In this document: piece after piece, positions 720-14,334 of the stretch
Numbering within the stretch: the stretch's first letter is position 1
Layout of the letters: each line of letters begins with the position of its first letter
Source: Thermoanaerobaculia bacterium
GTDB lineage: Bacteria > Acidobacteriota > Thermoanaerobaculia > UBA5066
DNA length: 64,000 nucleotides
Assembly: GCA_022071945.1 (NCBI GenBank)
Contig: JAJVIN010000001.1
Location: forward strand, 372,001-436,000
Direction: 5' to 3'
Position numbers and translations under genes: made by a program
The notes under the pieces: model-generated
Told to the model about the DNA's origin: nothing
The model's database searches: none
Seen by the model: only the letters and a program-made list of their open reading frames with translations

Positions 720-1931
720 TCAGCCGGGGTCGCTGACGCGGTAGATCATCGCGAGGCCCTTGACGCCGCCTTGACGGAGCTTCCGGAACAGGGCGAGAGC
801 CTCCGAAAAAGTCTCGAAGCGGCCCGTCAGGACACAGTGCCGGACCCCCAGCGCGCCCGGCTCGCTCGAGGCGACGAAGACCGGCTCGGGCGAGCGGCTC
901 TTCCACTCGATCGTCGCGACCGAGGCGAGACCGCGATCCTGGTACGAATCGAGAAGCACCGAGTAGACCGGCTGCTTGCCGGCCCAGTCCCGGGTTTTGA
1001 ATCCCGCTGCCGCCGACGGCTCGGGCATCTCCTTTTTCGACCCGGGCTGGAGCGCTTCCCAGATCGCGCTCGAGGCGGTCGGAGCCGGGCGCTGCTCGAA
1101 CAACTCGGAGGGCGGGACGAGCGTGACCTGCGCCATCGGGGAAGGCGGGGCCGCGAGATAAAAGTCGCCGATCACGTCCGAAAAGATCCACGGCCGCTGC
1201 CGGCCCCCCGATGCCGAAAAGACGCGAGCCTTGACCTCGTCGAAGACCTGGGTCGCCTTCACGCCCCGCTTGCGAAGAGCCTCGACGAGGTACTTCGTGA
1301 AGAGGCCGTTCGATTCCCCAGGGTTGTCCGAAGCCGTCTTCCCCGGCCCCGTCGCCAGGACGATCAGCGTCCCCTGGCCGCCCTCCATGGCGGCCAGCCC
1401 CGTCATCCCGGAACGGGTGGTCTTGAAGGGATTGTCCCGGCAGGCATCGATCACGAGGATGCTGAGGGCCGGCTTCGCCGCCTCCATCCGCTCCCGGATC
1501 ATCTCGATCGAGAGCCCTCGCTCCTTCGCCGAGATCTCGTCGTCCGCCTGAAAGTCGACCGGGACCACGTAGTTGACGTTCTCGATCTGGATCCCGTGCC
1601 CCGAGTAATAGAAAAACGCCGTGTCGCCAGGAGAGATCTGAGAGGTGAACCGGCGAATGGCGCGCTCGGAATCGGCCCGCGCGAGATTCTCGAACTGCGA
1701 CACCGAGAAGCCGATCTCGCGCAGGACCGCCGCGACAGAACGAGAGTCGTTGACGGCGTTTCTGAGCGGAATCCCCGGATAGAGGTTGTTGCCGATCGCC
1801 AGGGCGATGCGCCTCGAGGAAGAGCCCGCGGACTGGGGCAGCGGGGGAAGCCGCCGCTCCCCCGTCTGGGCCAGCAGGGAAAGCGCAAGAAGACCGGCGA
1901 GGACACCACAGAGCTTCGGAAGGGACCGCAC
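720..1931 (-). CDS. Secreted caspase-family (C14) protease with SPOR-like C-terminus
   Basis: This is a prokaryotic caspase-like cysteine peptidase, predicted to be exported. From the GTG at 1931 the protein has 403 residues and a hydrophobic N-terminal segment (about residues 8-22) that looks like a signal peptide. The p20-like core has the catalytic His in FFYYSGHG (His112) and the catalytic Cys in VIDACRDNPF (Cys164). The last 80 residues (from about 323) resemble a SPOR peptidoglycan-binding domain, which I hold only moderately. The frame stays open to an ATG at 2081, but that extension is Arg/Gly/Pro-rich and would bury the signal peptide. A TATAAA sits six bases before the GTG. It is divergent from the caspase operon that begins at 2189. 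Confidence 0.83.
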   Translation of the reverse strand: MRSLPKLCGVLAGLLALSLLAQTGERRLPPLPQSAGSSSRRIALAIGNNLYPGIPLRNAVNDSRSVAAVLREIGFSVSQFENLARADSERAIRRFTSQISPGDTAFFYYSGHGIQIENVNYVVPVDFQADDEISAKERGLSIEMIRERMEAAKPALSILVIDACRDNPFKTTRSGMTGLAAMEGGQGTLIVLATGPGKTASDNPGESNGLFTKYLVEALRKRGVKATQVFDEVKARVFSASGGRQRPWIFSDVIGDFYLAAPPSPMAQVTLVPPSELFEQRPAPTASSAIWEALQPGSKKEMPEPSAAAGFKTRDWAGKQPVYSVLLDSYQDRGLASVATIEWKSRSPEPVFVASSEPGALGVRHCVLTGRFETFSEALALFRKLRQGGVKGLAMIYRVSDPG

Positions 1932-2188
1932 CCGCCGTTTATACCTAATCCCGTTGGCTCTTCGGGAGGGACGCTCCGTCTCCCCAACGAGCCGGCGGCC
2001 GGGTGCCCGGCTCCGTCCCCCCGGTCCCAGGAGCCCAACACCAGCGCACGCGAATCGAAAGATCGAAAAACGGGGCGTCATCCTTCATCATAGCCGCCAC
2101 CCACGTGTGCTCGAGCGGGTCTCGTGACAGTCGATGTCTCCCGCTGCCTCGATCCCGCATCCCCGAACGCCGTCAAGGAGACCGATCC

Positions 2189-2854
2189 ATGAAACGACCC
2201 TACTTCCACCTGTTCGCCCTCGTGGCGTCGCTCTCGATCAGCTCCTCCGCGCTCTCGCAGATCCCTGGCAGAAAGCCGCTCAGCGCACGCGACCTTTACT
2301 ACGCTCCGGGCCAGGGACAGCAAGGGAGCAAGATCTCGATCAAGCTGAACCGGGGAGGAACGATCACGATGGTCCCTCCCGGCTACCGGTTCCGGTCCGG
2401 CGATCAGATCCGCCTCGTCTTCTCGACGAACTTCACGGGCTACGTCGGAATCTCCAACCAGGGCTCGACGGGAGCCGTCACCCTGCTGTATCCGCCGGCC
2501 GGCGACTTGGGACAGGTCACCCCCTCCAGCAATTTCGAGGTGCCCGGGCAGGGCTGGCTCCAGTTCGACAACAAGCCGGGCCGCGAGCGGCTCGTCGTCG
2601 TCTTGTCTCCGAAGCCCATTCCCGTAATCGCCGCGGCTTCTTCCCCGGCCACGCCCCAGCCAGCTGGCGCCACGACTCCGCAGCAGCAGGCGGAGATCCT
2701 TGCGCAGCTCAACAGCAAGGCCCTCGAGGAGACCCGCCGGATGCAGGGCGGGCGTGACCTCTCCTTCATTCCGGATGGGGACTCGATCTACGCCAACTCG
2801 GGCGCCGCCGTCCAGAAGCCCTGGGGCTTCGAGCTCTTCCTCACACACGAATGA
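2189..2854 (+). CDS. Exported DUF4384-type protein, first gene of caspase operon
   Basis: This 221-residue protein of unknown function has a signal peptide (MKRPYFHLFALVASLSISSSALSQ) and, at about residues 50-115, the pattern YRFRSGDQIRLVFSTNFTGY followed by a Gly-Tyr-Val strand and LLYPP. That pattern matches DUF4384, a domain often linked to bacterial caspases. A Gln/Ala/Pro-rich linker and a short C-terminal block follow. The ATG at 2189 has AAGGAG eight bases upstream. Its stop overlaps the next start as ATGA, implying translational coupling to the caspase downstream. A longer in-frame start at 2003 gives no signal peptide and was not used. Confidence 0.82.
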   Translation: MKRPYFHLFALVASLSISSSALSQIPGRKPLSARDLYYAPGQGQQGSKISIKLNRGGTITMVPPGYRFRSGDQIRLVFSTNFTGYVGISNQGSTGAVTLLYPPAGDLGQVTPSSNFEVPGQGWLQFDNKPGRERLVVVLSPKPIPVIAAASSPATPQPAGATTPQQQAEILAQLNSKALEETRRMQGGRDLSFIPDGDSIYANSGAAVQKPWGFELFLTHE

Positions 2855-4308
2855 GACCGCTGGCATCACCCCTGGGACGATTCCCCGCGGTGTTCGCGGC
2901 CCTGGCCGTCCTCGTCGGCAGCCCCCTTCTCCCGCTGCCCGCCGCGGGGGCGCCGCCCAGCGCGCTCCCACCGAAATCCACGGGAGGAACGAGACGGGCC
3001 GTCATCACCGGCATCAACGACTACGGCTACATCAAAAAGCTCAAGGGCTGCGTGGCCGACGCCCATCACATGCGAGACGCCCTCGTCTCCAAGTTTGGAT
3101 TCGACCCGGCCAACGTCCGCCTCCTCCTCGACAAGGACGCGTCGAGAACGGACATCCTTCAGGCGTTGCGGAGCTCGGTCGCGGCCAGCGGCCCCGGCGA
3201 CCTCTTCGTCTTCTACTACTCGGGCCATGGAAGTGTCTTCCCCGACGACCTGTCTCCGATCCAGGATGAGACTCGAGTCATCCAGGCCGGACCGTACATC
3301 CCGAGAACGGGGCGCTACGACTCGGCCCTCTGCTCGTGGGACACGGGCGGGCCCTCTACGAATCCGAAACCGTGGGAGAACCTGATCCTCGACGACGAGC
3401 TCAACGAGATCTTCGCGGGGGCCTCGGAGAGGGGCGTCGCCGTCACGCTGATCTCCGACTCTTGCCACTCCGGCTCTCTGGCGCGCGAGCTCCCCAGGGA
3501 CACCGCCATCAAGTTCGTCTCTCCCCGAGAAGCTCTGAGGGGAAGCCTGGCCCCAGCGCCGCGCTCGGCCGGGCCCACCACCCCGAGAGCGCCCGGCAAG
3601 GGCTTCATCGCGCTCGGCGGCTGCAAGGACGAACAGACATCCAAGGACAGCCCCAACGGCGGGCTCTTCACCACGGCGCTCCTGGCAGTCGTGGAGGACC
3701 TCTCGCACAAGAACAAGGGAGCCCTGACCTACGAAACGGTTTTCGCCCAGACCAAGGGCATCGTGATGGAGCTCTCCCGGAAAATCTTCGGCGAGCTGCA
3801 GGAACCTTCGCTAGATGACCGGTTCTTCGGAGCTTCCCTCTCAACTCCCCTGTTCACCGCCCCCGGCTCGCCCTCCCCGCCCGTCCCCGCCACGGCGCCT
3901 CCCGCGCCGGTCCCCACCTCGATTCCCGCCTCACCGCCCGCGACCGTGCCCCCCGCAACGCCGCCAACCCCGGCATCGGTTCCGGCCGCGACCGCCGCGG
4001 CTCCCGTGATCCGCCGAGTCGTCATCCGGATTCGCGACCATGCCGGAAACCCCGTTGCGGGCGCCGCCATCGCCCTTCTCCCCGCCTCGTTCCCCGCCGG
4101 CAAGGAGATCCGGCCCTCGGATGCGCTGGCCCTCGGGCGGACAGGCGAGAAGGGCCTCTACGACAGCGGGGCCGTTTCTCTTTCGCCCGGCCTCTATCGG
4201 GCCAGGATCGTCGCTCCCGGGTTGCGGACGTTCGACGGCCCCGTAACGCTCGAGGGCGGAATCGAAGCGGCGACCGCCGTTCTTTCCTTTGACTTGGACA
4301 AGGATTAG
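2851..4308 (+). CDS. Exported caspase-family protease with Pro-rich linker and Ig-like C-terminal domain
   Basis: This is a metacaspase-like C14 peptidase of 485 residues. A signal peptide covers about residues 1-33. The catalytic domain (about 47-335) contains VFYYSGHGS (His126) and ISDSCHSGS (Cys205), with an intact dyad and the acidic residue before Cys that is usual for Arg/Lys-specific caspases. A Pro/Ala/Thr-rich linker (about 338-385) leads to a C-terminal beta-sandwich of the carboxypeptidase-regulatory-like type (about 388-485, RDHAGNPVAGAAIALLP). Linkers of this kind usually separate an enzyme from a surface-binding domain. The gene is coupled to its upstream partner by a 4-bp overlap and lies 8 bp from the next gene. 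Confidence 0.88.
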   Translation: MRPLASPLGRFPAVFAALAVLVGSPLLPLPAAGAPPSALPPKSTGGTRRAVITGINDYGYIKKLKGCVADAHHMRDALVSKFGFDPANVRLLLDKDASRTDILQALRSSVAASGPGDLFVFYYSGHGSVFPDDLSPIQDETRVIQAGPYIPRTGRYDSALCSWDTGGPSTNPKPWENLILDDELNEIFAGASERGVAVTLISDSCHSGSLARELPRDTAIKFVSPREALRGSLAPAPRSAGPTTPRAPGKGFIALGGCKDEQTSKDSPNGGLFTTALLAVVEDLSHKNKGALTYETVFAQTKGIVMELSRKIFGELQEPSLDDRFFGASLSTPLFTAPGSPSPPVPATAPPAPVPTSIPASPPATVPPATPPTPASVPAATAAAPVIRRVVIRIRDHAGNPVAGAAIALLPASFPAGKEIRPSDALALGRTGEKGLYDSGAVSLSPGLYRARIVAPGLRTFDGPVTLEGGIEAATAVLSFDLDKD

Positions 4309-4316
4309 GAGAACCG

Positions 4317-5816
4317 GTGGCGAGGGCTTTCTGCTGGATCCTGACTGCAGCCCTGTTCCCGGCGCTGTCTGCCGCGGGAGCTGACAGAGCTCTGGTCATC
4401 GGGATCGAGCGGTACGCAAGCACCGCGGTTCCACCCACGGCCGGGAGCGAGCGAGATGCTCGGGAGCTCTCGCGGTTTCTGACGGCGCGCATGGGCTTTC
4501 CGCCCGGCTCGGTCCGGATGCTCCTCAACGAAGAGGCCACGGCCTCGCGCATCGAGAAGGAGTTTCAGAGCTGGCTCATCGCGGGCTCCGGCCCGGGTGA
4601 CCGGGTCTTCTTCTCGTATTCGGGACACGGCTCCCGAGTTCCTCGCACGGACGGCGCCGGCGATTTCCACAACACGCTCGCTCCCTACGACGTGGACCCG
4701 GAGTCCGGGGCTCATCAGGTTCTGGACACCACGATCCGAAGGCTCGTGAACCAGCTCGCGGGGCGGCGGGCCGTTCTCCTCTTCGACTCCTGTCACTCAG
4801 GCAGCATCGCCCGCTCCCTATCCTCCGCCCAGGCGGGAAAGCGAGCGTTCAGCGGCCGGTACCTCCCGACTCCAGCGGAAATCTCGGCTTTCCGTGGATC
4901 CAATTCCGGGTCCCTCGGCCGCGAGAGTTTCGTCGTGACGGCAACCGGCAGTTCCCGCTCCGTTCCAGCCAAATCCGCGGACAGGGGGATGTTCTTGACG
5001 ACGACCATGGAAGGCGCTGGAAGCGGCGTCATCTCCATCGCCGCTGCCGCGGACCACCAGGTCGCGTTTCCGTTCCAGGCTCCGGACGGCAAGGTGATGG
5101 GCGCCCTGACGTGGGCGTTTCTCGAGTCCGTCGGCGGCGGAGCCTCTCCGTTCGGCAAGGTGAGGACCGAAATCCCGGCCGCGATCGCGCGGCTCCAGGC
5201 GGCCGGTCTCCTGCAGGGCGAGCAGGTGCCACAGTTCGACGTCCGGACGACCGACACGCTCTCCCTCGAGAGTCAGCCTCTCTTCGGAACCTGGCAGACG
5301 GCGGCGGCAACGGCGATGCAAAATCCGGCCTGCCCCGGCCGGCTCTCCCTGCGGATGGCACCCAAGCGTCCCGGCGAACCCTATCGCGAGGGGGAGACCT
5401 TCGCCTTCGACGTGGAATCCTCGATGCAGGGTTACCTCTACCTCCTGGTCTTCAGCGAGGGGCGCAAGGCGAGCTGTTTGATTCCAAACGTTCTCGACCG
5501 GGATCCGAGGATCTCCGCCGGCAAGAGCAGGTTTCCCAGGAAGGGCGAGGAGTTCGTCGTCACGTGTCACCCCGCCCCGTGCGGAACGGACGTCGCCGTC
5601 GCCATCGTCAGCGAACAGCCGCTCGGACTCGGCGAGAAGGAAAACTACGCGTGGGACGAGATCTTCGGACGCCTCCGGTTGAAGGAGCTGGAGGCGTATC
5701 TCGGCGTGCCTGCCGTGGCTGGCGCGCCTGCCCGCAGGAAAGCCACCGCCGGGCCAACTGCTCCCGCGGGCACATGGCAGGCCGCCACCGCCATCTTCGA
5801 GAGCCGCAAACGATGA
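4317..5816 (+). CDS. Exported caspase-DUF4384 fusion protease
   Basis: This is the second plus-strand caspase, 499 residues from a GTG at 4317 preceded by TAGGAG. A short signal peptide (about 1-20) precedes the C14 domain with VFFSYSGHGS (His104) and LLFDSCHSGS (Cys159). The C-terminal part (about 345-440) repeats the DUF4384 pattern (EPYREGETFAFDV, then GYLYLLVFSEG and LIPN) seen as a stand-alone protein in the first gene of the operon. Several cysteines late in the protein could form disulfides after export. Its stop overlaps the next ATG (ATGA), so the two are probably translated together. The active-site signature is very close to that of the preceding caspase, which suggests tandem duplication followed by divergence of the tails. 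Confidence 0.88.
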   Translation: MARAFCWILTAALFPALSAAGADRALVIGIERYASTAVPPTAGSERDARELSRFLTARMGFPPGSVRMLLNEEATASRIEKEFQSWLIAGSGPGDRVFFSYSGHGSRVPRTDGAGDFHNTLAPYDVDPESGAHQVLDTTIRRLVNQLAGRRAVLLFDSCHSGSIARSLSSAQAGKRAFSGRYLPTPAEISAFRGSNSGSLGRESFVVTATGSSRSVPAKSADRGMFLTTTMEGAGSGVISIAAAADHQVAFPFQAPDGKVMGALTWAFLESVGGGASPFGKVRTEIPAAIARLQAAGLLQGEQVPQFDVRTTDTLSLESQPLFGTWQTAAATAMQNPACPGRLSLRMAPKRPGEPYREGETFAFDVESSMQGYLYLLVFSEGRKASCLIPNVLDRDPRISAGKSRFPRKGEEFVVTCHPAPCGTDVAVAIVSEQPLGLGEKENYAWDEIFGRLRLKELEAYLGVPAVAGAPARRKATAGPTAPAGTWQAATAIFESRKR

Positions 5817-6691
5817 AGGCATGCCTGCTTCTGGCGTTCCTGGCCTTTCCCGCCGCCGCCCTCACGTGCGACGAGCGCGCCCTCGAGCTCGAACGGAGAG
5901 CTCACCTCCTCGAGAGCCGGGAATTCGTCCGCGTTGCGTCGCAGCTCGTCTCCGACTGCCCGGCGAACGCACGGGCGCGGAATCTTCTCGCGACCGCCCT
6001 GGAGAGTTCCGGCGATCTCTCCGGCGCGGCAAGCCAGTACCAGGAGGCAGAGCGGCTCGATCCGAAGTGGGCCTACCCGCACCTCGGTCTGGGAGACATC
6101 GCCGCCGCGCGCAAGGACTTCGAGACGGCGAAGGAGCAGTACCTGCAGGCGTCCAGGCTCGCCGCGAACCCCGGCGAGCGTTCCGACGCCGCGCGTTCGC
6201 TCGAGAGTCTCCCGGGAAGCTCGCGATCCTATTCGTTCAAGTCCGCGGGAAGTATCGAGAAGCTCCTCGACATCGGCCACGATCACCGGGGACGGCGCGG
6301 AGCTTCCGTGAGGATCCCCAGCCCGTCTCTCGATTCCTTTGTCTCGGAGTCTGGAATCGCGGTGAACTTCACGATCGAATTCGATTTCGACTCCGCCGCT
6401 GTCCGTCCCGCTGCCATCCCGCAGCTGATCGAGCTCGCCGCGGCCCTGAAGAAGGCCGCGGCCAAAGAACGCTACGTCATCGAAGGGCATTCGAGCTCGG
6501 AGGGCGACCTGGCTCACAACACGCGTCTCTCGCTCGAAAGGGCCAAGAGCGTCCTGGCGACCCTCGTCGCGGGTGGAGTCAGCCCGGCGATCCTCTCGCC
6601 GCGAGGCGCCGGTCCGTCGCGCCTGGTCCTGGAGAACGGAGTCGAAAACAAGGAGAAGAGCCGGAGAGTCACGCTCTTCCGGCCCTTCTGA
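5813..6691 (+). CDS. TPR-OmpA periplasmic protein, last gene of caspase operon
   Basis: This 292-residue exported protein has a signal peptide (about 1-17), TPR-like helices (about 25-125, including SSGDLSGAASQYQEAERLDP) and a C-terminal OmpA/MotB-like peptidoglycan-binding domain (about 185-292). The OmpA domain has the expected IEFDFDSAAVRP start, the IEGHSSSEG loop, the LSLERAKSV helix and a final RRVTL strand. The GH-S-S motif replaces the more common GHTD. TPR plus OmpA suggests a scaffold that binds the cell wall and recruits partners, so it may position the exported caspases encoded just upstream. It overlaps the preceding stop by four bases. Confidence 0.85.
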   Translation: MKACLLLAFLAFPAAALTCDERALELERRAHLLESREFVRVASQLVSDCPANARARNLLATALESSGDLSGAASQYQEAERLDPKWAYPHLGLGDIAAARKDFETAKEQYLQASRLAANPGERSDAARSLESLPGSSRSYSFKSAGSIEKLLDIGHDHRGRRGASVRIPSPSLDSFVSESGIAVNFTIEFDFDSAAVRPAAIPQLIELAAALKKAAAKERYVIEGHSSSEGDLAHNTRLSLERAKSVLATLVAGGVSPAILSPRGAGPSRLVLENGVENKEKSRRVTLFRPF

Positions 6692-6706
6692 TCCTGGCGC
6701 TTTTTG

Positions 6707-6724
6707 GAAGGGTCTCGACCCTTC
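6707..6724. terminator. Hairpin between convergent genes (weak terminator candidate)
   Basis: GAAGGGT and ACCCTTC form a perfect 7-bp stem with a CTCG tetraloop, between the end of the TPR-OmpA gene and the end of pstB1. Neither strand has a T-tract after the stem, so an intrinsic terminator is not proven. Confidence 0.35.
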
Positions 6725-6779
6725 AGCGAGTCATGGTGACGGCGGCCCGGCCTCTGTGAGGTTGCGGCCGAGCCCGCCC

Positions 6780-7556
6780 TCAGCCGTAGCGTCCCTCGAT
6801 GTACTCGAGCGTCTTGGGGTTCCTGGGATTGAGGAAGAGGTCCTCGGTCTTGGCGTGCTCGACCACTCTGCCCATCAGCATGAAGATGCTCTCGTCGGAG
6901 GCGCGGCGAGCCTGCGACATGTTGTGGGTGACGATGACGATCGTGTAGCGGCCCTTCAGCTCGAACATCTGCTCCTCGATCGCTCGCGTCCCCTCGACGT
7001 CGAGAGCCGAACAGGGTTCGTCCATCAGGATGACCTCGGGCTTGAGAGGCAGAAGCCGCGCGATGCAGAGCTTTTGTTGCTGCTCGAGCTGGAGCGAGGT
7101 GGCCCTCGCGTCGAGCCGGTCCTTCAGGTCCTTCCAGAGTCCCACCTCGGTGAGGGCCTTTTCCACGGCGGTATCCAGCTCGGAACGCTTCAGCTCCCGC
7201 CTTTTCGAGTGGATCCTCAGTCCGAAGACGACGTTCTCGTAGACGGAAACGGGCAGGGGATTCGGCCTCTGGAAGACCATTCCGACCGCCTTGCGGAGCT
7301 CGACCAGGGAGACATCGGAATCGTAGATGTTCTTGCCGAGAATCTCGATTCCCCCGGAGGTCCTCACGTAGTCGTACCGCTCGTTGACACGATTGAAGCA
7401 GCGCAGGAGGGTTGTCTTCCCGCATCCCGAGGGTCCGATGAGAGAAGTGATCTGGCCTTCCTTGACCTCGATCGAAACGTCGATCAGGGCCTGGAACGAG
7501 CCGTACCAGAGCGAGAGCCCCCGGGTGACGATGGCGTTCCGGCCGTTCTCTCTCAT
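6780..7556 (-). CDS. pstB: Phosphate ABC transporter ATPase PstB1, degenerate signature motif
   Basis: This is the 258-residue ATP-binding subunit of the Pst high-affinity phosphate importer, acting on the cytoplasmic face. Walker A (GPSGCGKT, 41-48), the Q-loop (MVFQRPNP, Gln96), Walker B (VILMDEP) and the H-loop (IVTHN, His211) are intact. The ABC signature, normally LSGGQQQR, reads LQLEQQQK (155-162), losing both glycines and the serine. Its start overlaps the stop of pstB2 by 4 bp. It ends the phosphate operon. The lesion is complementary to the defects in pstB2, which suggests an obligate heterodimer rather than a dead gene. Confidence 0.9.
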   Translation of the reverse strand: MRENGRNAIVTRGLSLWYGSFQALIDVSIEVKEGQITSLIGPSGCGKTTLLRCFNRVNERYDYVRTSGGIEILGKNIYDSDVSLVELRKAVGMVFQRPNPLPVSVYENVVFGLRIHSKRRELKRSELDTAVEKALTEVGLWKDLKDRLDARATSLQLEQQQKLCIARLLPLKPEVILMDEPCSALDVEGTRAIEEQMFELKGRYTIVIVTHNMSQARRASDESIFMLMGRVVEHAKTEDLFLNPRNPKTLEYIEGRYG

Positions 7557-8317
7557 CCGAAGATCCCGTTCACGTACCCGTAGGTCCGGCGATCGGCGGG
7601 GTTGTCAGAGAAGACGACGTCCGTCGATCCGACCTCGACGATGTCGCCATTCCAGAGGAACATCGTCCGGTCCGCGAGACGCCTGGCCTGCTGCACCAGG
7701 TTGGTGACCAGGATGATGGTGACCCTGGACTGGAGCTCCTTCAGGACATCCTCGATTCGCATGGTCGTCACCGGATCGATGGCGATCGAAAACTCGTCGA
7801 GGCAGAGGATCTCGGGATCGTGGGAGAGGGCACGGGCGATCGTGAGCCGCTGCTGTTGCCCGCCCGACAGAGCGGTCCCGAGGCTGCCGAGCCGGTCCTT
7901 GACCTCGTCCCAGAGCGCAGCCTGGCGCAAGCACCTCTCCACGATGGCCTCGAGCTCTCCCCGGGCCTTCATGCCGGCACAGCGGGGAGCGAAGGCCACG
8001 TTGTCGAAGATCGTGAGCGGGAGCCCGACCGGGAGCGGGGCGACCATCCCGACCTTCCGTCTCAGGGCGAAGACGTCCTTCACGCGGCGCACGTCGAGCC
8101 CGTCGATCTTCACCGTGCCGGTGACACTGGCCTCGGCAACCTGATCGATCGTCCGGTTCAGGCATCGGAGCAGAGACGTCTTCCCCGACTGCGCCGGGCC
8201 GATGATGGCGAAGATCTCGTTCTCTTTCACGTCGAACGAAATCCCGTGCAGGACTTCCTTCGTGCCGTAGGCAACCCTGAGGTCGCTCACTTCGATGGCG
8301 AGTCGGGACGCCGTCAC
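7553..8317 (-). CDS. pstB: Phosphate ABC transporter ATPase PstB2, degenerate Q- and H-loops
   Basis: This 254-residue second PstB-like ATPase retains Walker A (GPAQSGKT, 40-47), a perfect signature (LSGGQQQR, 150-157) and the Walker B aspartate and glutamate (ILCLDE). The Q-loop reads MVAPLP, with no glutamine, and the H-loop reads LVTNL, with Asn206 where histidine should be. DEPTSALD is altered to DEFSIAID. These are the positions that remain intact in pstB1. The gene lies 4 bp after pstA and overlaps pstB1 by 4 bp. Family assignment is firm; the asymmetric ATPase role is inferred. Confidence 0.9.
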   Translation of the reverse strand: MTASRLAIEVSDLRVAYGTKEVLHGISFDVKENEIFAIIGPAQSGKTSLLRCLNRTIDQVAEASVTGTVKIDGLDVRRVKDVFALRRKVGMVAPLPVGLPLTIFDNVAFAPRCAGMKARGELEAIVERCLRQAALWDEVKDRLGSLGTALSGGQQQRLTIARALSHDPEILCLDEFSIAIDPVTTMRIEDVLKELQSRVTIILVTNLVQQARRLADRTMFLWNGDIVEVGSTDVVFSDNPADRRTYGYVNGIFG

Positions 8318-8321
8318 ACTC

Positions 8322-9233
8322 TCACCACTTCTTCCGGCCGCGGAGCCAGATCCGCAGGACGATGGCGCTCGCGTTGACGAGGAGAACCGACCCGAGAAGG
8401 ACGACCGCCGTCGCGTAGGGGATCGATTCCTTCACGTTCGGGACCTGGGTCGACACCGTGTAGAGGTGCATCGACAGGGCCATGCACTGATCCCCGAGGC
8501 GGTAGGGGAAGAGGTCCCCCCTGCTCACCGCCTTGAAGAAGACGGCTCCGGTGAACATGACGGGCGCAGTTTCGCCCGCGGCCCGGCTCACCTGCAGGAT
8601 GATGCCGGTGAGGATCCCCGAGATGGAGTTCGGCAGGACGACGGCCCGGATGGTCTGCCAGCGCGTGGCCCCGACGTTGGCACAAGCGTCCCGGAAGGCC
8701 CTCGGAACCGCCGAGAGGGCCTCGCGCGTGCTGGCGATGATGACGGGCAGCGTCATGATCGCGAGCGTGAGGGAAGCGGACAGGATGGAGAAACCGAACC
8801 TGGCTCCATAGACGAACGCGCCGAGGCCGAACAGGGCGTGCACGATGCTGGGCACTCCGGCCAGGTTGATGACCGCCATGTTGATGAGACGATTCAGCCA
8901 GCTCTCCCGGGCGTATTCGTTGAGGTAGATCGCCGCCAGGACACCGATCGGGGCCGAGATCGCAAGCGAGAGGCCGACGAGGTAGAGCGTGCCGACGAAG
9001 GCGGACCAGATCCCGCCTTCCCTCATCCCCTTTCTCGGGATGTCGGCCAAGAACTCCCATCCGAGGCTCGGCCACGCCTTGTAAAGGAGGTACACGATGA
9101 TGGCCACGAGCGGCAGCACCATGGCGAGAGACATCGCGCCGAAGACCCACTTCGCCACCGTTTGCGCCCGTTCGCGGCGGGCCACCTGGTGAGTCCGGGT
9201 GAACCGCTCGGAGGGGGGAGTCACGGATTCCAT
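8322..9233 (-). CDS. pstA: Phosphate ABC transporter permease PstA
   Basis: This 303-residue inner-membrane permease has about six hydrophobic segments, the first at residues 28-50. The binding-protein-dependent permease core includes the EAA-type loop (ALSAVPRAFRDACANVGATRWQ in pieces, about 170-192) that docks on the ATPase. It pairs with PstC to form the phosphate channel. It starts 6 bp after pstC and ends 4 bp before pstB2, consistent with one transcript. Nothing in it looks damaged, and its length is normal for PstA. Confidence 0.93.
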   Translation of the reverse strand: MESVTPPSERFTRTHQVARRERAQTVAKWVFGAMSLAMVLPLVAIIVYLLYKAWPSLGWEFLADIPRKGMREGGIWSAFVGTLYLVGLSLAISAPIGVLAAIYLNEYARESWLNRLINMAVINLAGVPSIVHALFGLGAFVYGARFGFSILSASLTLAIMTLPVIIASTREALSAVPRAFRDACANVGATRWQTIRAVVLPNSISGILTGIILQVSRAAGETAPVMFTGAVFFKAVSRGDLFPYRLGDQCMALSMHLYTVSTQVPNVKESIPYATAVVLLGSVLLVNASAIVLRIWLRGRKKW

Positions 9234-9239
9234 GGAACC

Positions 9240-10178
9240 TCACTTCCTCCGGATTCCGCGCACGGCCAGATCCGCGGCCACGTTGACGACGAGGGTGATG
9301 GCGAACAGGAGGACGCCGGTCAGGAAGAGGACGCGATAGTGGCTCGACCCGGCCGGGGCCTCGCCGAGCTCCGCCGCGACGTTCGCGGTCAGGGTGCGGA
9401 CCGAGTCCAGGAGGCCGTGCGGGATCTGCACGGCGTGCCCGGTTGCCATCAAGACCGCCATCGTCTCCCCCACCGCTCTGCCCACGCCGAGGAGAACCGC
9501 GGCCAGAAGTCCGTTCTTGGCCGCGGGCAGCAGCACGCGGAACACGGTCTCCCAGCGGGTCGCGCCGAGGGCGAGCGCCGCCTCGCGGTACGAGTCGGGC
9601 ACGGCCTTCAGGGCGTCTTCCCCTATCGAGACGATGACGGGAACACTCATCAGCGCCAGGATGAACCCGCCGTTGAGGAGGTTGACTCCGACAGCCGTGC
9701 CGGTGACGGAGACGATCAGCTTGCTCATGACGGTCAGCCCGATGAAGCCCCAGACGACACTCGGGATCGCCGCGAGGAGCTCGATGACGATCTTGAGAGT
9801 CTCCTTGATCTTGGGTGAGCAGAACTCCGAGATGAAGATGGCCGCTCCGAGGCCGAAAGGGACGGCCAGGACGATCGCGACGCCCGTGACGGAAAGAGTG
9901 CCGATCGTCAGGGCGAAGGTCCCGTACCTGACGTTGTTGACGGAGGTCGGGTACCACTCCTTGCTGAAAAGGAACTCCGCGAAATCGAAATCGGGATCCC
10001 ACAGGACGGGGACCGCCTCGCGGAAGATGAAGAAGAAGATGGCCGCGACGAAGAAGACGGCGGAGACTCCGCTCAGCCGGATGACGAACTCGATGATCCG
10101 CTCGATTGCAATCGAGGCCTTCGGCCGCTGGGGCCGAGGCGCCCCCACTGTCCGCCTGCCTTCGGAGACAGCGCTCAT
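9240..10178 (-). CDS. pstC: Phosphate ABC transporter permease PstC
   Basis: This 312-residue permease has a first transmembrane segment at about residues 33-52 (LSGVSAVFFVAAIFFFIF) and several more after a periplasmic region. The EAA loop (ALKAVPDSYREAALALGATR, about 205-224) is well conserved. It forms the translocation pathway with PstA and receives phosphate from PstS. The basic N-terminus before the first helix is usual for PstC. It lies 46 bp after pstS and 6 bp before pstA. Confidence 0.93.
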   Translation of the reverse strand: MSAVSEGRRTVGAPRPQRPKASIAIERIIEFVIRLSGVSAVFFVAAIFFFIFREAVPVLWDPDFDFAEFLFSKEWYPTSVNNVRYGTFALTIGTLSVTGVAIVLAVPFGLGAAIFISEFCSPKIKETLKIVIELLAAIPSVVWGFIGLTVMSKLIVSVTGTAVGVNLLNGGFILALMSVPVIVSIGEDALKAVPDSYREAALALGATRWETVFRVLLPAAKNGLLAAVLLGVGRAVGETMAVLMATGHAVQIPHGLLDSVRTLTANVAAELGEAPAGSSHYRVLFLTGVLLFAITLVVNVAADLAVRGIRRK

Positions 10179-10224
10179 ACCGCGGGTGCTGGGAGCTTTC
10201 GCATTCGTCCCGCCCTCGGGCTCA

Positions 10225-11142
10225 TCACTTGGTTGCCCCAGCCGGGTTCAGCGGCACGTCGCCATTCTCGGCGAGGATCTTCTGTCCCGCCGGGGAGAGG
10301 ATCCAGTCGATGTACTTCTTGACCTCGCCCTGGGGCTCGCCGAGCGTGTACAGCTGGAGCGACCGCGCGAGCGGGTAGACCTTCGAGATGGTGTTGGCGA
10401 CCGTGGCCTCATAGGCCGGCTCGCCCGGCTTGGCCGAAAGCTTGAGGATCTTGACCGCCGGCGTGGCGTAGGCCATGCCGCTGTAGCCGATCGCGGTCTT
10501 CGACGAACCAACCAGCTCGACGACCTCCTTCGAGCCGTTCATGTCGCGGGACCCGAGCTTGAAGTCCCTCTTGCCGAGGACGTGCTCGCGGAAGAACTCG
10601 TAGGTGCCCGAGCTCGACTGGCGGCTGACGCGGATGATGGTGTCATCGCTGGCGCCCGGAATCGTGACCCCGGCATCGGACCACTTCGTCAGCTTCCCGT
10701 CCTCCGCGAAGATCTCGGCGAGCTGCGGAAGCGAGATCTCGGTCATGGGGTTGTCCTTGTGCACGTAGATGGCGAGGCCATCGAAGCCGACGATGAACTC
10801 CTTCGGTTCCTTGCCCGTGTTCTTTTTCGCCCTCTCCGCTTCCTCGGGCTTGATGTTCCGGCTCGCGTTGGCGATGTCGACCGTTCCCTTCTCCAGGGCC
10901 GCGATCCCGACTCCCGAGCCGCCACCCGAGACCTCGACGCCGACGTTCGGAGCAGCGACCTTGTACGCCTCGGCCCAGGCCTGGGCGACATTGACCATGG
11001 TGTCGGATCCGCGGACCTGAATCGTCGTCATGGCAGGGCCGCCGCCGCTCTTGCCACAGCCCGGGGAGAAGAGGGCGAGAAGCGTCCCTCCCAGGAAGGC
11101 GCCGCTCAGGGCCAGGGTGGTCACGATTCGGTTTCGAGTCAT
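10225..11142 (-). CDS. pstS: Phosphate-binding lipoprotein PstS
   Basis: This is the periplasmic phosphate receptor of the Pst importer, 305 residues. I chose the ATG at 11142 because it gives a signal sequence ending in a lipobox-like SPGC and has AAAGGA just upstream; the open frame extends further but only through sequence antisense to the frame of the upstream gene. The PBP-like domain begins with TTIQVRGSDTMVNVAQAW and contains GGGSGVGIAAL and SRQSSSGTYEFF, typical phosphate-contacting loops. It lies 50 bp after the phoU-like gene and leads pstC. No clear PhoB box is visible upstream. Confidence 0.92.
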   Translation of the reverse strand: MTRNRIVTTLALSGAFLGGTLLALFSPGCGKSGGGPAMTTIQVRGSDTMVNVAQAWAEAYKVAAPNVGVEVSGGGSGVGIAALEKGTVDIANASRNIKPEEAERAKKNTGKEPKEFIVGFDGLAIYVHKDNPMTEISLPQLAEIFAEDGKLTKWSDAGVTIPGASDDTIIRVSRQSSSGTYEFFREHVLGKRDFKLGSRDMNGSKEVVELVGSSKTAIGYSGMAYATPAVKILKLSAKPGEPAYEATVANTISKVYPLARSLQLYTLGEPQGEVKKYIDWILSPAGQKILAENGDVPLNPAGATK

Positions 11143-11192
11143 GTCGAGAGTCCTTTCCGTCCTGCCCGCAAGGGTGAGCTCAAGGCGAGGCG

Positions 11193-12293
11193 TCAGCCGT
11201 GGTTGGAATCGCGGATGGCCGAGACGAGATCGCGGATCTGACCCTCGATGAAGTCGTAGGTCCGCTGCATCGCTTCGGAAACCGCCGCCGGACCGCCTGC
11301 TGCCTGGGTCGGGTTCTCTGTACTCCAGTCCAGGAGCACGGTGTGCCGCGGCCGCCTCGGAAACGCGCGTCTGGCCTCGGCGGCTAAGAGCACGATCACG
11401 TCGGAATGGTCGATGTTGGGGATCTGGGCTAGCGACTTGGGAACGGAACGGGCCACGTTGAAGCCCTTCTTCGCCATGAACTCCACCGTGGAGGGGTGCA
11501 GAGGCCTCGGATCCACTCCCGCGCTGGAAAAGGAGAAGTTCGGAATGCGAAGGGCGTTCCCGATTGCCTCGGCCATGAGGCTCCGGCAATCGTTGTGCTC
11601 GTCGATGAAGAGAACGTTGAAGACATTCGACCCCGGGTGCTTGGCGATCTCGCCCGTGCACATGTAGAGGGTCTCCATGCTGATGTTGCGAGCCTGGTCC
11701 GAGACCCGCTCGAGCCGCCGGGCGATCATCACGAGAGGGTTGAGGGCTTCAAAGGGGAGCTGGCCCTCGCGGTAGAGAACTGTCAGTTCCCTCGTGAGCG
11801 TGTCTCGCAACAAATCCACGGCGTCGTCGGCCTCGATCGTTCGGCGGGCCAGCTCGGCATCCTGATTGACGAACGCCTGGATGGCATCGTGGAGCATCGG
11901 GACGGCCAGGCCGACCACCTGCTTGAGCCGGTCGAGAGGGAGCTCGGCATCGACCTCGGTCAGCTTCAGGGCCTGACGCGCAATCGATTCCGCGTAGTCA
12001 CCGACGCGCTCGAGCTCCAGGTTGATCTTGATCGTGGCATAGGCGAAACGGAGCAGGCTCGCCGCGGGCTGATGCTTGACCAGGAACGCCAGGCACATCT
12101 TGTCGAGCTGCTTTTCAGCTTCGTCGATGTACTGGTCCCTGAGGATCACCGCGAAGGCGAGCTGCCGGTTCCTCTCGACGGCGGCCCGGATGCTGGCCAG
12201 GATGGCCCTTTCCGCGAGCCCTCCCATCTCGATGACCTTGTCCCTGATGAGCGCCAGATCCTGACGCAGCGATGCCTCGAGGTAGGTGGACAT
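11193..12293 (-). CDS. phoU: PhoU fused to an inactive low-molecular-weight phosphatase-like domain
   Basis: The N-terminal 215 residues are PhoU, a three-helix-bundle duplication with the metal-binding signatures ELERVGDYAESIA (about 94-106) and RRLERVSDQARNI (about 192-204). PhoU signals phosphate status from the Pst transporter. The C-terminal 140 residues resemble low-molecular-weight tyrosine phosphatases and ArsC-type arsenate reductases, but the P-loop reads FIDEHNDCRSLMAEA where the family has a Cys at the third position. Asp231 replaces the nucleophile, so catalysis should be lost. I chose the ATG at 12293, which has GAGG ten bases upstream; an in-frame ATG at 12311 is possible. It is the first gene of the pst operon, whereas phoU usually comes last. 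Confidence 0.88.
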   Translation of the reverse strand: MSTYLEASLRQDLALIRDKVIEMGGLAERAILASIRAAVERNRQLAFAVILRDQYIDEAEKQLDKMCLAFLVKHQPAASLLRFAYATIKINLELERVGDYAESIARQALKLTEVDAELPLDRLKQVVGLAVPMLHDAIQAFVNQDAELARRTIEADDAVDLLRDTLTRELTVLYREGQLPFEALNPLVMIARRLERVSDQARNISMETLYMCTGEIAKHPGSNVFNVLFIDEHNDCRSLMAEAIGNALRIPNFSFSSAGVDPRPLHPSTVEFMAKKGFNVARSVPKSLAQIPNIDHSDVIVLLAAEARRAFPRRPRHTVLLDWSTENPTQAAGGPAAVSEAMQRTYDFIEGQIRDLVSAIRDSNHG

Positions 12294-12591
12294 TTCAGAA
12301 GGACCTCGCATTCCTGCTCGTGGTTTTCGGGAGGATCGTCACGTCGTCTATCCAGGAGCTCCCCGGGGAAAGAGCCAGAATCGGGAACCGCTCGCCACGA
12401 GCCCGCGGCCCCCCGCCCCTCGACGCCAGCGACCCGTTCCCCGAGGCTACCAGAGATGTGAAATCCCTGTGAAGCGCTGGGCCCGCCCGCGAACGGAGGT
12501 CGAAGCGGTCCAGCCGGGAAACTCCGGATGGTATCGTCTGTCACCCGCTTGCCGGGCCCCGGCCCGGGCGCGAGCGGGCCAGGAGGACCCG

Positions 12592-14334
12592 ATGAACTTC
12601 TCCATCAAGGTCGACCCCGCGACGTGGCAGCGCTACATCTCCTCGAGAGTGAAAGGCGCCGAGCTCCTGTCGGACCCCTTCACCAACAAGGCCTCGGCCT
12701 TCACGAAGCGCGAGCGGGCTCAGCTGGGACTTCTGGGACTCTTGCCGCCCGCCGTCTCCACCATGGAACAGCAATTGACCCGGGTGTACGAGAACTTCCT
12801 CGACCGTCCGACCCCGCTCGGAAAGTACGGTTTTCTCGCCAGCCTTCACGACCGTAACGAGACCCTCTTCTTTCGTCTCGTCCACGAACGCATCGACGAG
12901 ATGTTGCCCATCGTCTACACCCCCGTCGTCGGCGAGGCCTGCCAGCAGTTCTCGCACCTGTACAGGAGGACCCGCGGTCTCTACATCTCCTACGACCAGC
13001 GCGACGCGATCGAGGAGATCCTCCGCAACACCTACACGGCGGACCCCTCGGTCATCGTCGTCACCGACGGAGAGCGGATCCTCGGCCTGGGAGACCAGGG
13101 CGTCGGCGGAATGGGGATCCCGATCGGCAAGCTCTGTCTCTACACGATCTGCGCGGGCGTTTCCCCCTACAGCACCCTCCCCATCATGCTGGATGTCGGC
13201 ACCGACAACGAGGAGCTCCTGAAGGATCCCCTCTACCTGGGCCTCAGACACAAGCGAATCCGCGGTCAGGAGTACCAGGAGTTCGTGGACCGCTTCGTTG
13301 CCGCGGTGAAGAAGACCTACCCGAACGTCGTTCTTCAGTGGGAGGACTTCCTGAAGGAGAACGCGATCACCCAGCTGGAGCGATTCCGCAACGTCTTGCC
13401 CAGCTTCAACGACGACATCCAGGGGACGGCGGCCGTCGCCGTCGCGGGCATCTACGGCGGCATGCGGCTCTCGGGCCAGTCGATCCGCGATCAGCGGCTC
13501 GTCTTCGCCGGGGCGGGAGCCTCGGCCCACGGCATCGCCGACCTGTTCTGCGCGGCCCTGACCAGCGAAGGGCTCTCCCACGAGGAGGCCCGGCGGCGGG
13601 TCTTCACCGTCGACACGAAGGGACTCGTCACCCGCAACCGGCCCGGACTGGAGGGTTTCAAGGCGGCCTTCGCGCGCGATCCCGAGGAAACGGCCGGATG
13701 GGACTGCCGGGACCACTCCCGCATCACACTCGAGGAAACCATCCTCAACGCGAGGGCCTCGATCCTCATCGGAGTCTCGGCCACCCCGGGCACGTTCACC
13801 GAGCCGGTCGTGCGCTCGATGGCCAGGCTGAACGAACGGCCCCTGATCTTCCCGCTCTCGAACCCGACCTCGAAGAGCGAGTGCTCGGCCAAGGACGCCA
13901 TCGAGTGGTCCGAGGGCCGTGCCATCGTCGCCTCGGGCAGCCCCTTCTCGCCCGTCACGTACGCCGGGAAGACCTACCGGATCGGCCAGTGCAACAACGC
14001 CTTCATCTTCCCCGGCGTCGGCCTCGGCGCCTGCGTCGCTCATCCCCGCTACATCAGTGACGGGATGTTCCTCGCCGCCGCGAAGACCCTGGCTGCGAGC
14101 GTGACGGCCGATGACCTCGCCGAGTCGGCCGTCTTCCCGAAGCTGACCCGCATCCGCGACTGCTCCCACGCCATTGCCTGTGCCGTCGTTCGAAGCGCCG
14201 TCGCGGACGGATACGCCGACGAGGAGATCCTCATGAACCTCGAGGAGACCGTCCGCCGGTCGATGTGGTTCCCCGAGTACCTCCCCATTCGCTACGAGCC
14301 CTGGGAGGGACCGAGCCTGCCGGCTCCGCGCTGA
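12592..14334 (+). CDS. NAD-type malic enzyme
   Basis: This 580-residue enzyme oxidatively decarboxylates malate to pyruvate in the cytoplasm and closely resembles SfcA/MaeA-type large malic enzymes. Visible motifs are IVYTPVVGEACQQFS (catalytic Tyr region), GLGDQGVGGMGIPIGKL, FNDDIQGTAAV (metal-binding) and the nucleotide-binding FAGAGASAHGIADL. The C-terminal FPLSNPTSKSEC and QCNNAFIFPGVGLG motifs are intact. The ATG at 12592 has AGGAGG six bases upstream; the frame stays open upstream to 12286, but that part has no similarity to the family. It is divergent from the phoU-pst operon across 298 bp, in which I see no clear Pho box or other structure. Confidence 0.95.
   Translation: MNFSIKVDPATWQRYISSRVKGAELLSDPFTNKASAFTKRERAQLGLLGLLPPAVSTMEQQLTRVYENFLDRPTPLGKYGFLASLHDRNETLFFRLVHERIDEMLPIVYTPVVGEACQQFSHLYRRTRGLYISYDQRDAIEEILRNTYTADPSVIVVTDGERILGLGDQGVGGMGIPIGKLCLYTICAGVSPYSTLPIMLDVGTDNEELLKDPLYLGLRHKRIRGQEYQEFVDRFVAAVKKTYPNVVLQWEDFLKENAITQLERFRNVLPSFNDDIQGTAAVAVAGIYGGMRLSGQSIRDQRLVFAGAGASAHGIADLFCAALTSEGLSHEEARRRVFTVDTKGLVTRNRPGLEGFKAAFARDPEETAGWDCRDHSRITLEETILNARASILIGVSATPGTFTEPVVRSMARLNERPLIFPLSNPTSKSECSAKDAIEWSEGRAIVASGSPFSPVTYAGKTYRIGQCNNAFIFPGVGLGACVAHPRYISDGMFLAAAKTLAASVTADDLAESAVFPKLTRIRDCSHAIACAVVRSAVADGYADEEILMNLEETVRRSMWFPEYLPIRYEPWEGPSLPAPR

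Follow-up and report, generated by a model that had tools for sequence, protein, structure and literature searches.

A three-caspase locus with predicted export signals and DUF4384 and TPR-OmpA partners: a possible serpin-free form of a recurrent orthocaspase module

What might three caspase-family proteases with apparent export signals do beside a free DUF4384 protein and a TPR-OmpA protein? The question is raised by a five-gene locus at positions 720-6691 of a 64,000-nucleotide stretch of DNA (the whole stretch analysed, hereafter the window) from a Thermoanaerobaculia bacterium (GenBank assembly GCA_022071945.1, contig JAJVIN010000001.1, positions 372,001 to 436,000). We call its proteases caspases A, B and C in their order along the window. 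The original prediction read the locus as an envelope-anchored proteolytic system. We propose, with belief and doubt in about equal measure, that it is a compact version, without serpin or trypsin, of a recurrent and undescribed extracytoplasmic orthocaspase module. The recurrence of the caspase/DUF4384/OmpA combination in distant diderms (Schekmanbacteria, Desulfobacterota, and Alpha-, Beta- and Gammaproteobacteria) is well supported.

Three caspases and two partners share one locus

Domain calls at Pfam curated cut-offs (21.4 bits for C14, 27 for DUF4384) bear out the predicted company of three caspases, a free DUF4384 protein and a TPR-OmpA protein, with C14 matched in caspase A (129.5 bits, E=2e-37), caspase B (83.9 bits, E=1.8e-23) and caspase C (70.3 bits), and OmpA in the TPR-OmpA protein (52.8 bits). 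DUF4384 likewise occurs, as had been noted, once free (32.0 bits) and once fused to a caspase (caspase C, 47.2 bits). Because the three C14 and two DUF4384 domains within these 6 kb are exactly those that a profile search of the whole genome (6.17 Mb) returned, the clustering of these genes is beyond chance. The coupling described for the plus-strand genes was verified at its coordinates, with ATGA overlaps at 2851-2854 (DUF4384/caspase B) and 5813-5816 (caspase C/TPR-OmpA) and an 8-bp gap (4309-4316) between caspases B and C.

No C14 match was found in any searched genome of the same family or the same order. Among full-length relatives, those nearest to caspase C come from other Acidobacteriota classes and from Schekmanbacteria, at about 35-42% identity, and in the tree it falls within a fully supported clade (100/100) with Acidobacteriota and Schekmanbacteria proteins. 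Because the kin lack C14 and the nearest relatives of caspase C are distant, either the locus was acquired long ago or it is a relic that its kin have lost; G+C content is similar in the locus (0.669) and in the rest of the window (0.650). That no searched relative of the family or order keeps the locus would also suit a chance gathering, or a decaying locus without joint function. We consider this very improbable, as the frames are intact, the 4-bp overlaps and catalytic residues are retained, all copies in the genome lie in one place and the combination recurs independently.

Catalytic motifs, fold and predicted export

The His/Cys dyad claimed for all three caspases is present in each, as YSGHG and DACRDNP in caspase A and as YSGHG and DSCHSGS in caspases B and C. 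H112 and C164 of caspase A (numbered from the GTG at 1931) are invariant in a 17-row alignment, and in caspase C the dyad H104/C159 and the acidic residues D47 and D157 are invariant across 26 homologues. D47 and D157 align with their counterparts in yeast and Arabidopsis metacaspases, and we take them, from TbMCA2, to be S1 pocket positions. Since all three caspases have the dyad, and caspase C, the one of the three in which the acidic pocket positions were examined, has both of these, they would be expected to cut after Arg/Lys.

The best phmmer and Foldseek matches are metacaspases, and the predicted structure of caspase C (predicted local distance difference test, pLDDT, 76.6) has its best PDB folds in Arabidopsis metacaspase 9, the closest, and GSU0716. 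An acidic loop (DNGDExDGxDE) is common to metacaspases and most caspase C homologues; caspase C itself lacks it, reading PRTDG---AGDFHNT in the alignment where others read PDxNGDExDGxDE. This loop is linked to Ca2+ activation, and calcium-independent metacaspases exist. Since the loop is absent, caspase C may be calcium-independent.

Two of the endings originally suggested found no support. The C-terminal ~130 residues of caspase A, for which SPOR had been thought possible, match no Pfam family, have no homologous tail in the examined relative loci and are modelled at a pLDDT of about 30-60 even with 17 sequences; on these grounds a SPOR ending is unsupported. The tail of caspase B, taken for immunoglobulin-like (Ig-like), reaches CarboxypepD_reg at E=0.025 only, under the curated cut-off; a caspase B homologue with the tail occurs in a related locus (L071, E=9e-54; related loci are labelled L with a number). 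Caspase A itself counts as part of the locus because A-type (DACR[DN]NP) caspases occur in module loci L084, L093 and L112, with a homologue in L149. Its start is more likely GTG 1931 than ATG 2081, since the hydrophobic leader begins there and most homologues begin aligning nearby.

Each of the five proteins has a hydrophobic N-terminal stretch and none further in, and in this N-terminus they differ from the neighbouring PstB and GntR, taken as cytoplasmic controls. The export signals first noted on the three caspases are thus found as export-like N-termini on all five proteins, which are predicted to be exported via Sec-type leaders. DUF4384 is modelled as an Ig-like beta-sandwich; a fold search gave weak Ig-like or carbohydrate-binding-module matches only (E 0.01-0.1), and a sequence search against solved structures gave no credible match.

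The caspase/DUF4384/OmpA combination recurs

The collection of named genomes (84,980 species), scanned with one profile, yielded 80 loci, whose neighbourhoods were read with hidden Markov models built from the window proteins (few seeds); gene calls in the relatives are simple open reading frame (ORF) calls, and some contigs of metagenome-assembled genomes are short. Loci were chosen by their focal gene and not by its neighbours, so that neighbour counts are non-circular, and loci cut by contig ends lower these counts. With short caspase-DUF4384 proteins taken as those of at most 680 residues and neighbours as genes within 5 kb, OmpA was nearby or fused in 12 of 23 short caspase-DUF4384 loci, as against 3 of 51 loci of other caspases (Fisher test, p = 1.6e-5), and a free DUF4384 gene was present in 11/23 and 7/51, respectively (p = 0.003); as the loci are phylogenetically non-independent, these p-values are a guide only. 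The window locus fits the module that we propose, a short exported caspase-DUF4384 protein that has OmpA and a free DUF4384 protein encoded a few kb away at most (further examples in Table 1). The module is rare: under strict thresholds, three samples, each of about 280 genomes, contained no more than a handful of matching genomes apiece. Long caspase-DUF4384 proteins (mostly 720-770 residues, chiefly from Cyanobacteria) were weighed as members but left out because they are mostly solitary, so that a DUF4384 fusion is not by itself enough to define the module.

Closest to the four plus-strand genes is the Schekmanbacteria locus L070, with three of the four genes plus a tail homologue of caspase B; its TPR-OmpA homologue shares 30% identity (E=3e-16). 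Fusions bring the partners closer still. DUF4384, TPR and OmpA form one chain in Rhizobium (R. johnstonii 3841), and in L081 OmpA is fused to the caspase (OmpA-caspase-DUF4384). The rhizobial fusion is the best evidence for a joint role of the free DUF4384 protein and TPR-OmpA, because the first rhizobial gene unites the very two small proteins encoded at either end of the window operon. The original reading as an envelope proteolytic system thus gains from the recurrence and from both kinds of fusion; its SPOR and Ig-like endings are unsupported.

Some related loci are arranged differently. A near full-length homologue of the free DUF4384 protein (E=8e-27) lies directly upstream of a caspase-DUF4384 gene in L061, in a run that continues with TPR-M48, caspase and WD40-caspase genes. 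Genes for an extracytoplasmic function (ECF) sigma factor and a Ser/Thr kinase lie directly upstream of that run (L061 6806-9220). In two Aminicenantes loci (L063 964-7372 and L073 9974-16339) a caspase-DUF4384 gene is followed by a second caspase gene and then by one for a large TPR-PEGA-NHL protein, whose domain make-up is taken from L063; OmpA is absent from this further cluster of apparently exported caspases.

In some relatives the module lies on mobilizable or conjugative plasmids. On plasmid p2 of Azospirillum sp. TSA2s it adjoins VirB conjugation genes (L187 1-11132). The conjugative R. leguminosarum plasmid pRLTp73_3 carries four caspase-family genes around a lysozyme gene (L188 2698-14597), possibly a different caspase cluster.

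Patchy distribution and carriage on such plasmids, once beside VirB genes, are in keeping with an envelope suicide or anti-phage effector that kills or remodels the cell upon envelope breach, as is the fact that each of the three caspases partially matches the PADLOC caspase model. That model, however, is a generic caspase one, and the matches reach no further than its first third (profile positions 5-168 of 453). No defence partner was recognised among the five proteins, the other PADLOC matches being only ZorB-like via the OmpA domain, nor were defence genes identified in the examined flanks, and the export signals put the proteases outside the cytoplasm. We regard such an effector as unlikely.

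Trypsins and serpins accompany related loci

The trypsins and serpins of the relatives, which do not figure in the original prediction, are the strongest clue to mechanism. A Pfam tally of other neighbour genes (n=59) held four serpins, three trypsins and two CHAT proteins. Serpin genes are adjacent in seven loci (L078, L093 with two, L099, L178, L180, L181 and Rhizobium), and in L093, L099 and L078 their immediate neighbour is the caspase-DUF4384 gene or the DUF4384/OmpA genes. L178, L180 and L181, found by a separate profile search in Alphaproteobacteria, carry OmpA, a trypsin-caspase-DUF4384 fusion and then the serpin, with an extra caspase in L180 and L181, where the serpin gene overlaps the fusion gene by 4 bp. 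Trypsin is fused to caspase in these three loci and in Rhizobium, and lies nearby in L070, L085 and L099. Serpins occur in 8 of 23 genomes searched, module-adjacent copies making up four of about 10 serpin genes.

In the rhizobial plasmid run, a DUF4384-TPR-OmpA gene is followed by genes for a caspase, a trypsin-caspase-DUF4384 fusion, a serpin and a Ser/Thr kinase; the p20 domain of the fusion has SGQG in place of SGHG, like the QC class discussed below. Plasmid records with at least 80% of the protein number 88 for trypsin-caspase and 89 for the serpin, nearly all of them Rhizobium. Psychrobacter and Porphyrobacter plasmid serpins have no annotated caspase next door. In all eight adjacent serpin loops, Arg/Lys followed by Ser/Ala/Gly stands, by eye, at or within two residues of P1-P1', a pattern that fits trypsin and Arg/Lys-specific caspases.

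A serpin immediately downstream of a protease gene, often overlapping it, would also be expected if the proteases acted on neighbouring cells while the producer was shielded by the serpin or something equivalent. Such offence with self-protection is quite unlikely in our view: nothing dedicated to secretion or delivery was found, the OmpA partner speaks for retention, and the window locus, having no serpin, would lack immunity.

The same genes bear on a more ordinary explanation, in which secreted proteases mature surface proteins or degrade external protein, much as the gingipains, which are caspase-fold and Arg/Lys-specific, with OmpA and DUF4384 serving surface display. We judge this rather unlikely. 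It agrees with the export leaders on all proteins, the S1-type acidic residues retained in caspase C and the OmpA partners of relatives, in which the canonical peptidoglycan motif (GHTD) is mostly retained, but an adjacent serpin, a kinase and several paralogues, some of them without the dyad, are more than a protease for nutrition or maturation needs. An obvious substrate or secretion gene was not seen adjoining the locus, although no search was aimed at such genes.

A proposed extracytoplasmic cascade

From the observed genes, motifs, recurrence, fusions and serpin/trypsin linkage we infer a location, specificity, docking, cascade and trigger for the compact orthocaspase module that we favour. 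Once the five proteins are exported by their predicted Sec-type leaders, free DUF4384 and TPR-OmpA would build a scaffold located at the outer membrane or the cell wall, an idea that draws on the fusion of DUF4384, TPR and OmpA into one rhizobial protein, and caspase C would dock on it via its own Ig-like DUF4384 domain. An envelope signal would release the caspases, which would cut after Arg/Lys and probably act in series or as pairs (active/inactive) on envelope or incoming proteins. Because many relatives have a fused or adjacent trypsin and an adjacent serpin with an Arg/Lys reactive centre, the general design may be a proteolytic cascade that, where there is a serpin, carries a suicide-inhibitor brake of its own. 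In the window locus the brake would be missing and control would come from elsewhere, since the genome has no serpin and the locus no adjacent trypsin. The wider claim, of a horizontally moving, undescribed envelope cascade with orthocaspases (often trypsin-fused), a DUF4384-TPR-OmpA scaffold and serpin restraint, of which the window holds a serpin-free form, is one that we advance tentatively, doubt slightly outweighing belief.

Several observations weigh against this reading. A serpin is absent from the whole window genome and a trypsin from beside the locus, and the prediction of export is based on hydrophobicity alone. Of the peptidoglycan-binding endings first suggested the OmpA domain stands, as a putative anchor, but its loop (GHSSSEG...RLSLERAKSV) has Ser for the canonical GHTD Asp, with the Arg region kept. 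The partner caspases in L180 and L181 have no recognisable dyad motif, the serpin-linked caspases fall in a different tree clade from caspase C of the window, and the cascade idea would be carried over from relatives at 20-40% identity. The four plus-strand genes had been expected to co-occur in related genomes; close relatives are without the locus, distant genomes have the combination, and the exact set was not seen intact elsewhere among the loci examined.

Relation to known systems

Caspase-based bacterial immunity, CRISPR- and gasdermin-linked proteases included, employs cytoplasmic caspase-fold effectors with sensors or nucleases. The window proteases share the fold but are predicted to be exported and are OmpA-linked, and no defence partner was seen. 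A named anti-phage caspase system was considered and rejected, the PADLOC caspase matches being partial and no cognate partner recognised. Known defence systems thus gave only partial caspase matches, and the architecture, as first stated, matches no named system. Orthocaspases and type I metacaspases have the same caspase fold, His/Cys dyad and acidic pocket positions (caspase C), whereas the window has clustered exported paralogues with DUF4384/OmpA partners and a caspase C without the acidic loop.

Alphaproteobacterial trypsin-p20-DUF4384 proteins are QC pseudo-orthocaspases (PMC6426788). They combine p20 with a C-terminal DUF4384, as in the window, and correspond to the trypsin fusions found in the Rhizobium module; the window fusion, in contrast, is without trypsin and keeps the His. 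OmpA is mentioned 0 times in that paper, which a full-text search for serpin and orthocaspase did not return. Caspase-DUF4384 and trypsin-p20-DUF4384 fusions are already catalogued (PMC8283722, PMC6426788, PMC7475262), and an OmpA domain was counted in 14 surveyed metacaspase operons (Asplund-Samuelsson et al., 2012, PMC3501461), a survey that in the passages found gives the count only and leaves DUF4384 and serpin/trypsin partners undescribed. In the open-licence papers searched, neither the combined module nor its serpin is described, and a search for a CRISPR-linked caspase cascade returned no match. Taken as a whole, the module has a real chance of being a system of a new kind.

For the serpin brake of the relatives there is a precedent in plants and algae, where AtSerpin1 inhibits the metacaspases AtMC9 and AtMC1, and CrSERPIN inhibits CrMCA-I (PMC10609998). 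These pairs differ in being eukaryotic and not operon-encoded, and the window genome is without a serpin. Metacaspase 9, the nearest fold to caspase C, is thus an AtSerpin1 target, but caspase C lacks the acidic loop.

According to a serpin phylogeny (PMC8233489), the functional diversity of prokaryotic serpins, like their specificity, is obscure. The targets of bacterial serpins are mostly unknown, and so are the roles of exported bacterial caspases; the recurrent fusion or adjacency of OmpA, trypsin and serpin to exported orthocaspases ties both questions together in a concrete hypothesis. As plasmids of R. johnstonii 3841 and R. etli CFN 42, both model strains, carry the full version, ordinary deletion and biochemistry can be used to test it. 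Such a cascade, if true, would be a bacterial design resembling coagulation or complement control.

Locus layout and a neighbouring gene

Table 1. Features of the window locus and of related loci
Feature	Locus or source	Position	Strand	Remarks
Caspase A	window	720..1931 (ORF open to ATG 2081)	minus	C14 protease, DACR[DN]NP type; export-like leader
Divergent intergenic region, caspase A/plus-strand operon	window	1932..2188		
Free DUF4384 protein	window	2189..2854	plus	221 aa; Pfam DUF4384; export-like leader
Caspase B	window	2851..4308	plus	Pfam C14; tail weakly CarboxypepD_reg-like; export-like leader
Caspase C	window	4317..5816	plus	C14-DUF4384 fusion, GTG start; Pfam C14 + DUF4384; export-like leader
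TPR-OmpA protein	window	5813..6691	plus	Pfam OmpA; export-like leader
Serpin	L093	11422-12630		Arg/Lys-type reactive loop
Serpin	L093	14374-15744		Arg/Lys-type reactive loop
Serpin	L099	3632-4885		Arg/Lys-type reactive loop
Serpin	L078	11973-13034		Arg/Lys-type reactive loop
Rhizobial run	L189, R. johnstonii 3841 pRL11	3889-13634		domain make-up verified
Rhizobial run	L190, R. etli CFN 42 p42e	2778-12563		annotated record
Module example	L070, Schekmanbacteria			three free DUF4384; TPR-OmpA overlapping caspase-DUF4384
Module example	L076			
Module example	L080, Desulfogranum mediterraneum DSM 13871			
Module example	L082, Thiotrichaceae			
Module example	L085, Hyphomicrobiales			
Module example	L087, Desulfobacterales			
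Module example	L089, Azospirillum			
Module example	L112, Pseudoduganella			A-type caspase, OmpA, caspase-DUF4384

A scan of the divergent gap between caspase A and the plus-strand operon found neither a sigma-70-like promoter nor a terminator. Elsewhere in the window, a minus-strand gene at 11193-12311, beside pst genes, encodes PhoU fused to a low-molecular-weight phosphotyrosine phosphatase domain.

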